Assembly (NCBI GenBank): GCA_030526515.1
Contig: JAUNCQ010000005.1
Coordinates: 1-52,352 of the forward strand
From: Coriobacteriia bacterium
GTDB taxonomy: Bacteria > Actinomycetota > Coriobacteriia > Coriobacteriales > Eggerthellaceae
Reading direction: 5' to 3'
DNA: 52,352 nucleotides
In this document: positions 495 through 1,591 of the stretch, piece by piece
Numbering within the stretch: position 1 is the first letter of the stretch
Layout: each line of letters starts with the position of its first letter
Made by a program: the position numbers and the translations under genes
The notes under the pieces: model-generated
What the model was told of the DNA's origin: nothing
The model's database searches: none
The model's input: only the letters and a program-made list of their open reading frames with translations

Positions 495-721
495 CGTCTC
501 GGCCGGCGCGGCGCGGCCGACCCGCTTCGCGGATGGCCGGACCGTGGCTGGCTCGCTTCGCGGCCGGCGCGGCGCTGCGGCCGAGCGCGAGACCACGAGC
601 GACTCTCGAGCCCGTCGACCCTTCCGGTCGGCGGGCTTTCTTTCGTCCTGGGGCCATTTCGCGCTGGAGGGCGTTTGCTGCGGCAGGGCGCTGGCTGCGG
701 TGGGGCGCTCCCTGCCGCGAG

Positions 722-1347
722 GCATTCGCACTTTCGGGCGCGGCGATGTGCGAATGATTCGGCGGCGTTCGCTCTTTGGGCAGTCGTAAAGTCGGAACGA
801 TATTTCGTTCCCACGTTGGCCGCGTTGAATGTGCGAACGACTTCCAGGCGTTCGCACTTTGCGCGCCCGTAATGTCGGAACGATTTATCGTTCCGACATT
901 AGCCTTGGTCATTATGGGAATAAAATTTAGCCCCAAAATCCATTCCCACATTCGTCCCACCGAAAGTCAGAACGACTCGAGGGGCCAAATCCGTTCACAC
1001 AATAGGGGGTTTGCGGGCATATGGGCCGAATACCTCCATTGTGCGAACGACCTGGGCGTACGTACAATGGGACGCCCGCAGAGTGCGAACGAATATTACG
1101 TTCACACAAGAGCCGTAAGCAATGTGTGAACGACCTCGGGGCGTGAAGGGGAGGATCACCACGCCGACGAGGAGACGCCTAGTTTCGGCCGAACATTCAC
1201 CGGCGCGTGGGCAGCGCTCGATGAACGATCGGCGATTCCGAGAAAGCGTCCACGCCCCCTTTCGCGCGTTGAGTGAATGAATCAGGCGTTCACCCGCTGA
1301 CCAGGAGCTTCCCATGAACGACTTTCAGGCCCCTGAATCGTTCATGG
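722..1347. repeat. Array of imperfect palindromes, repeat unit about 42 bp
   Basis: This gene-free stretch carries about ten inverted repeats built on a common plan: GTNNGAAYGA, a 2-15 nt centre, then the complementary arm. The 10-mer GTNNGAAYGA starts at 748, 791, 831, 874, 966, 1041, 1083 and 1124; several steps are 40-43 bp. Best palindromes: 723-731/748-756; 794-800/805-811; 831-839/849-857 (GTGCGAACG with CGTTCGCAC); 871-884/887-900 (14-bp arms, AATGTCGGAACGAT); 915-921/942-948; 1083-1091/1099-1107; 1273-1279/1287-1293; and 1312-1321/1338-1347 (CCATGAACGA with TCGTTCATGG), which continues inward with TTCAGG/CCTGAA. Arm sequences differ between units while staying complementary. No T-tracts follow the hairpins, so they are not ordinary terminators. 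Confidence 0.8.
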
Positions 1348-1591
1348 AGCATCGCCGTCGATTGGGTGAATGACTCCCACGGGCGCGGCAAGTGAGAGGA
1401 GGGCGCCCCGCCGAGCCCCACGGGGCCTGCCGCCTAGCAAATCCGACATCCCAGCAGTTCGGCCGAGCCAGCTACGAGGCGCCCGGCGCCGACGGTCAAT
1501 TGTGAAAGAATGATGACCTGCGGCTCTGGCGCTCATGCGCCCAAAAAATGAGTAAAATACCGTTGAATAACTGAGAGGAGAGCCCGCCCCC
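1348..1591. other. Gene-free stretch before the PASTA gene
   Basis: No gene is seen. A last GTGAATGA half-repeat lies near 1365. Short hairpins such as GCCCCG/CGGGGC (about 1410-1430) and GGCGC-TCAT-GCGCC (about 1527-1540, followed by an A-run) are present. A TAAAAT at 1553-1558 could be a -10 element, but no matching -35 is at the right distance. The Shine-Dalgarno GAGAGGAG for the next gene is at about 1571-1579. Confidence 0.5.

Follow-up and report, generated by a model that had tools for sequence, protein, structure and literature searches.

A regular array of short inverted half-sites occupies positions 723-1132 of the window, by which we mean the whole stretch of 52,352 bp that was analysed. 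It is probably a single copy of a BIME/MITE-like repeat that is discrete, dispersed, non-coding and non-autonomous and is recognised on DNA by a protein acting in trans. The conserved quantity is the distance between the half-sites on the DNA, which is retained through a nearly complete turnover of the linkers and through changes in the half-sites themselves.

Layout and geometry of the array

The half-site L is the 9-bp GTGNGAAYG, and R is its reverse complement. Along the main element (block A, 723-1132, whose plus orientation was set to match copies C33, C14 and C77) the two orientations alternate in the order R723 L748 R766 L791 R806 L831 R849 L874 R889 L914 R941 L966 R992 L1041 R1057 L1083 R1099 L1124. 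The element opens with the half-site R0, CATTCGCAC (723-731, minus strand), continues with eight L..R palindromes and closes with the half-site L9, GTGTGAACG (1124-1132, plus strand), the two terminal half-sites being the left and right edges of the similarity between copies. The half-sites of units 1 (748-774, L748..R766) and 3 (831-857, L831..R849) are 18 bp apart, with perfect 9-bp arms in unit 3, and those of units 2 (791-814, L791..R806) and 4 (870-901, L874..R889) are 15 bp apart, with perfect 15-bp arms in unit 4. The distance is 27 bp in unit 5 (914-949, L914..R941) and 26 bp in unit 6 (966-1000, L966..R992), after which a central spacer (1001-1040) bearing a GGGGG..CC(T/C)CC stem puts 49 bp between R992 and L1041. 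Unit 7 (1041-1065, L1041..R1057) and unit 8 (1083-1107, L1083..R1099) both have 16 bp; most copies have 27 bp in unit 8, so that 11 bp, or about one helical turn, is missing there from the window copy, a feature common to C34. An element comprises about 18 half-sites in one set layout with a single central gap.

All eight 10-mers that the earlier note had placed at 748, 791, 831, 874, 966, 1041, 1083 and 1124, as well as the arm pairs quoted in it, are present in the sequence. Its steps of 40-43 bp are correct, the fuller rule being 25/26 bp from R to L, 15/16/18/26/27 bp from L to R and one central gap of 48/49 bp. The palindrome array is real: 19 half-sites fall within 700-1400, where dinucleotide shuffles average 1.5, and the longest chain conforming to the spacing rule numbers 9, whereas no chain exceeds 2 in 300 shuffles or in unrelated loci totalling 851 kb. 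A chance origin is ruled out by the half-site count together with the chain statistics. A CRISPR array is not indicated either, the half-sites being inverted and variable rather than identical direct repeats with unique spacers.

The region 722-1347, previously taken for a single array, really consists of two blocks, 723-1132 and 1194-1372, with different half-sites. Block B (1194-1372; half-sites GTGAAYG/ATGAAYG) reads R1194 L1219 L1271 R1287 L1312 R1339 L1364 and contains a CCATGAACGA/TCGTTCATGG palindrome. Its distances of 25, 52, 16, 25, 27 and 25 bp belong, except for the 52, to the same set as in block A, and arrays of this type also adjoin copies C14 and C46. Block B is thus the same layout built on a different half-site sequence.

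In the source genome, the right arm is followed by the next left arm at 25 bp in 59 and at 26 bp in 7 of the 66 linkers counted, the central gap apart, while the left-to-right distances are 15, 16, 18, 26 or 27 bp. A small number of positions, at which divergence hid a half-site or an additional, spurious one was scored, do not enter this tally, and because the copies are kin it makes them look more independent than they are. The spacing classes were initially defined on this genome, and the sister species G001 served as an outside check, giving R26L 27 times, R25L 5, L26R 37, L27R 3, and in the centre R48L 10 and R49L 1, with scattered other values from diverged sites. The central gap is 48 or 49 bp in both species. 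Between copies, identity is 81% in the arms, 53% in the loops and 39% in the linkers, which, with linker lengths of 25/26 bp, means that the linker sequence is nearly randomised while its length is fixed. In the closest pair of copies, the arms changed half as much as the remainder (8% versus 16%).

Sites of the same orientation lie in helical phase. At 10.5 bp the resultant is 0.81 (L) and 0.67 (R) for the window copy (C31) and 0.91 (L) and 0.92 (R) for C77, two related copies that do not amount to independent tests. In a scan of 8-14 bp, the best helical period was 10.40-10.50 bp, and only 0.0001-0.0014 of jittered controls scored as high; the L-to-R distances of 18 bp fall off the half-turn series of 15.75/26.25 bp. 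Among the three options offered by the earlier note (an operator array on one face of the helix, a folded RNA or a hairpin substrate for a recombinase), the first therefore fits best, with its phase of about 10.5 bp, fixed linker length and free linker sequence. A G001 subfamily with TACGCGAACGA half-sites retains a 26-26-48-26-26 layout. Since the spacing is retained both in block B and in this subfamily, the geometry persists beyond both the linker sequence and the half-site sequence.

Copies, ends and genomic surroundings

DNA and pattern searches revealed at least ten dispersed intergenic copies of the ~425 bp element in the source genome, a draft of 93 contigs and 2.4 Mb: C14, C31 (the window), C33, C34, C45, C46, C63, C77, C80 and C81. 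The ten were aligned unit by unit, and similarity ends on both sides of them; seven complete copies (416-428 bp in the alignment) match throughout, and C80, C34 and C45 are partial. A coding function was rejected, as reading frames do not persist from copy to copy but are interrupted by stops and by length differences of a single base.

The covariance-model search of relatives proposed earlier found arrays in the source genome and G001, where the spacing is retained, and weakly in G033, which belongs to another genus of the family. Built on units 6 and 7, the model matched nine copies in the source genome, about a dozen places in G001 and three weak ones in G033, and nothing in 146 further relatives. 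Half-site enrichment among 138 family genomes was confined to G033 and the two species in which the source genus was compared. The exact 26-bp right-left module occurred, among 397 genomes of the order, only in G001 (the source genome uses 25 bp), and the core model, in a sample of 396 genomes of the phylum, matched the source genome only. At least 112 stretches in named genomes have the exact hairpin pattern, and a density scan found in them no motif array, just scattered chance hairpins. Searches of phages, plasmids and viral contigs gave nothing convincing, nine viral-contig matches being judged to be at about chance level, and literature searches returned no description of the element.

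In G033 the copies (L201 2228-2554, L202 2590-2991, L203 1935-2314) represent a looser relative with TTGTGTGAACGACGAA half-sites, steps of 29 and 34 bp and, in the centre, about 110 bp of inserted sequence. With 93% identity over 374 bp, two of these copies point to a more recent spread in G033. Arrays of G001 lie in mosaics with other repeat families (L188 584-966, L200 1296-1730, L196 1733-1901), for example, CAGCCGCACAATCG..CGATTGTGNGGCTG and TGTCAATTTG..CAAATTGACA palindromes.

The ends of the element are sharp: identity between copies falls at once to about 0.3 outside R0, and within 20 bp outside L9. They carry terminal inverted repeats, the repeat being the 9-bp half-site, which is imperfect in several copies. 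For target-site duplications, the best match in the ten old copies was no better than in re-paired flanks. The element is missing from two orthologous loci in G001. The prfB-tkt intergenic region, which bears a copy in the source genome, is about 150 bp long without a copy in G001 and short without a copy in G023 and G033. The PASTA gene adjoining the window copy has in G001 an ortholog preceded by a gene for what appears from its sequence to be an Era-like GTPase, with no array. Given its sharp ends at the terminal half-sites and its absence from two orthologous loci of G001, we conclude that it is a discrete, spreading, non-autonomous element. Absence from G001 could also be loss, and no copy in the source genome has flanking genes in common with any G001 copy; we infer that the element has spread within each genome, since its many copies occupy unrelated positions.

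The 95 bp preceding the PASTA gene (window 1496-1591) are nearly unchanged in G001, and everything further upstream differs; a conserved promoter region here borders a rearrangement junction. This junction is where the window copy is placed, given that G001 has a different upstream gene, no array and conservation only from about window 1496. On the other side, the array had been said to start where homology to larC ends, and it actually starts about 200 bp past the larC-like match (99-515). That match is confined to the C-terminal portion of the profile for the nickel-insertion (LarC) family (238-375 of 375), and a separate LarC match (profile 41-202) is found in a 614-aa frame on contig C20. 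A strong terminator-like stem of 13 pairs with a T-rich tail (608-638, plus strand) precedes the element by about 85 bp, and no obvious plus-strand gene ends there.

As to the genes flanking the arrays, whose identity the earlier note wished to see established, they have ordinary, unrelated functions and stand in convergent, codirectional and divergent arrangements. Pfam identified a release factor, transketolase, a zinc-ribbon protein, GntR, radical SAM proteins, a LysR regulator, a Flg_new-repeat protein and a choloylglycine hydrolase-family protein, and no transposase among these neighbours. Y1_Tnp genes (PF01797, RAYT-type) are absent from the source genome and G001, and the three in G033 all lie away from any half-site. 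Neither the neighbours nor the half-site matches in the draft genome included a parent transposon with the same ends, and none of the searches showed the units to be decayed copies of a known transposon end.

Arm complementarity and rival explanations

Within units, the arms mismatch at 1.36 positions on average, versus 1.67 when the arms are re-dealt among copies, and none of 5000 permutations was as low. The covarying arms claimed earlier are thus confirmed for units 4, 5, 6 and 7, whereas units 1-3 show essentially no gain and unit 8 little. Covariation is strongest in unit 4 (0.56 mismatches within versus 1.75 across copies) and is seen also in unit 5 (1.38 versus 2.17); the signal comes from arm positions 3, 4 and 6, and a pair count on units 6 and 7 agrees with it there. 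When right arms were paired instead with the left arms of the next units, the only gains were weak ones at R0-L1, R6-L7 and R8-L9, and a long central 6R-7L hairpin showed covariation not above shuffles.

These data bear on the possibility that each copy is transcribed into a structured RNA of ~425 nt with nine hairpins, in which base pairing is selected. Covariation beyond permutation in units 4-7, the pair count and strong folding relative to shuffles speak for such an RNA. However, covariation does not run through all the proposed stems, the arm sequence is fixed beyond the needs of pairing, and an RNA would not be expected to combine a constant linker length with a random linker sequence. 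Compared with shuffles, each strand folds far better, and the two do so about equally well (z of -8.3 and -6.6), which is how palindromic DNA would fold. The Rfam search gave no family match at the gathering score, and no promoter-like site was found at the array by a scan covering certain promoter types. Moreover, template switching between arms can create and maintain compensatory changes (PMC8794818), so that covariation alone does not show RNA, and the complementarity of the arms should not by itself be taken as evidence for RNA function. With genuine covariation in units 4-7 alone, RNA folding is the weaker reading; we consider such an RNA unlikely.

A hairpin substrate for a recombinase, the third option of the earlier note, would agree with the discrete and dispersed character of the element, but the searches turned up no associated transposase. 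Hairpins on which single-strand transposases act account for many of the palindromes dispersed in bacteria. A substrate of a REP-associated tyrosine transposase, i.e., a true BIME or REPIN cluster, would account for the alternating orientation, the intergenic dispersed location and the compensatory changes, all known from BIMEs and REPINs (PMC2817692, PMC3116915), but the lack of Y1_Tnp in both species, its remoteness from half-sites in G033 and the fixed linkers, set against the inter-REP segments of varying length in BIMEs (PMC2817692), make this quite improbable. We find it equally hard to credit that the array serves a host regulator as an operator for the adjoining genes: the inverted half-sites in helical phase do look operator-like and the window copy lies upstream of the PASTA gene promoter region, yet copies occur between genes of all relative orientations and beside unrelated functions, and that promoter region is conserved in G001 without an array. 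Chance or an assembly artefact has a negligible probability, for although several copies lie near contig ends (C14, C31, C34, C45), others are inside long contigs (C33, C46, C77, C80, C81), the same architecture occurs in a second genome, and the chain statistics exclude coincidence.

We therefore return to the repeat recognised on DNA in trans. On this view, a DNA-binding protein encoded elsewhere would recognise the half-sites on one helix face in a cooperative manner and build a nucleoprotein array. Such an array might either promote copying of the element, with a transposase or recombinase acting in trans, or benefit the host through chromosome organisation or insulation. The complementarity of arms in units 4-7 may come from the twofold symmetry of the sites together with homogenisation of the arms by template switching. 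Against recognition on DNA stand this covariation, which DNA binding alone would not require, and the L-to-R distances of 18 bp noted above. The slow change of the arms in old dispersed copies argues for continued use at the host level or for several long-lived lineages of replicating elements. More tentatively, the array might be an undescribed lineage-specific chromosomal element, a scaffold of ~18 half-sites in which helical geometry and not linker sequence is selected in each copy, read by a host protein and assembled by it into a nucleoprotein structure of constant size, e.g., for chromosome organisation, the half-site and the protein co-evolving in subfamilies. No half-site-binding protein was found in the source genome, a draft from which the partner gene could be missing. 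The repeat recognised in trans leads to a testable prediction, namely, a protein reading an inverted pair 25 bp apart and arrayed on one face of the helix.

Comparison with known palindromic repeats

Like BIMEs, which are composed of REPs mobilised by RAYT and to which host proteins, among them IHF and gyrase, attach (PMC2817692), the element is intergenic and dispersed and consists of alternating palindromic units with compensatory changes in the arms. Unlike BIMEs, whose inter-REP segments vary in length (PMC2817692), it has linkers of fixed length and a set layout in which a single central gap interrupts the series of about 18 half-sites, and it has no RAYT in the source genome or G001; the half-site frequency table and the alignment revealed no GTAG-type tag at the palindrome end. 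A REPIN is an inverted pair in which spacer length matters more than spacer sequence (PMC3116915), and the same preference for length is seen here, but in about nine helix-phased pairs of set order with no link to a transposase. CGTC-tagged REPs likewise are palindromic repeats with no known dedicated transposase, and the study that deals with them lists no case in Actinobacteria (PMC3733652); they differ in their stems, loops and array organisation, and the window copy lacks a terminal CGTC tag. With MITEs the element shares its short non-coding body, terminal inverted half-sites, sharp ends and presence or absence between species, although no target-site duplication or parent transposon was found and repeats of the same motif, set at constant distances, take up its interior. 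Taken together, BIME- and REPIN-like behaviour without RAYT and tags, and MITE-like ends without a known parent or a target duplication, allow us to conclude that the element belongs with the dispersed non-autonomous palindromic repeats, a known kind, as a variant of it.
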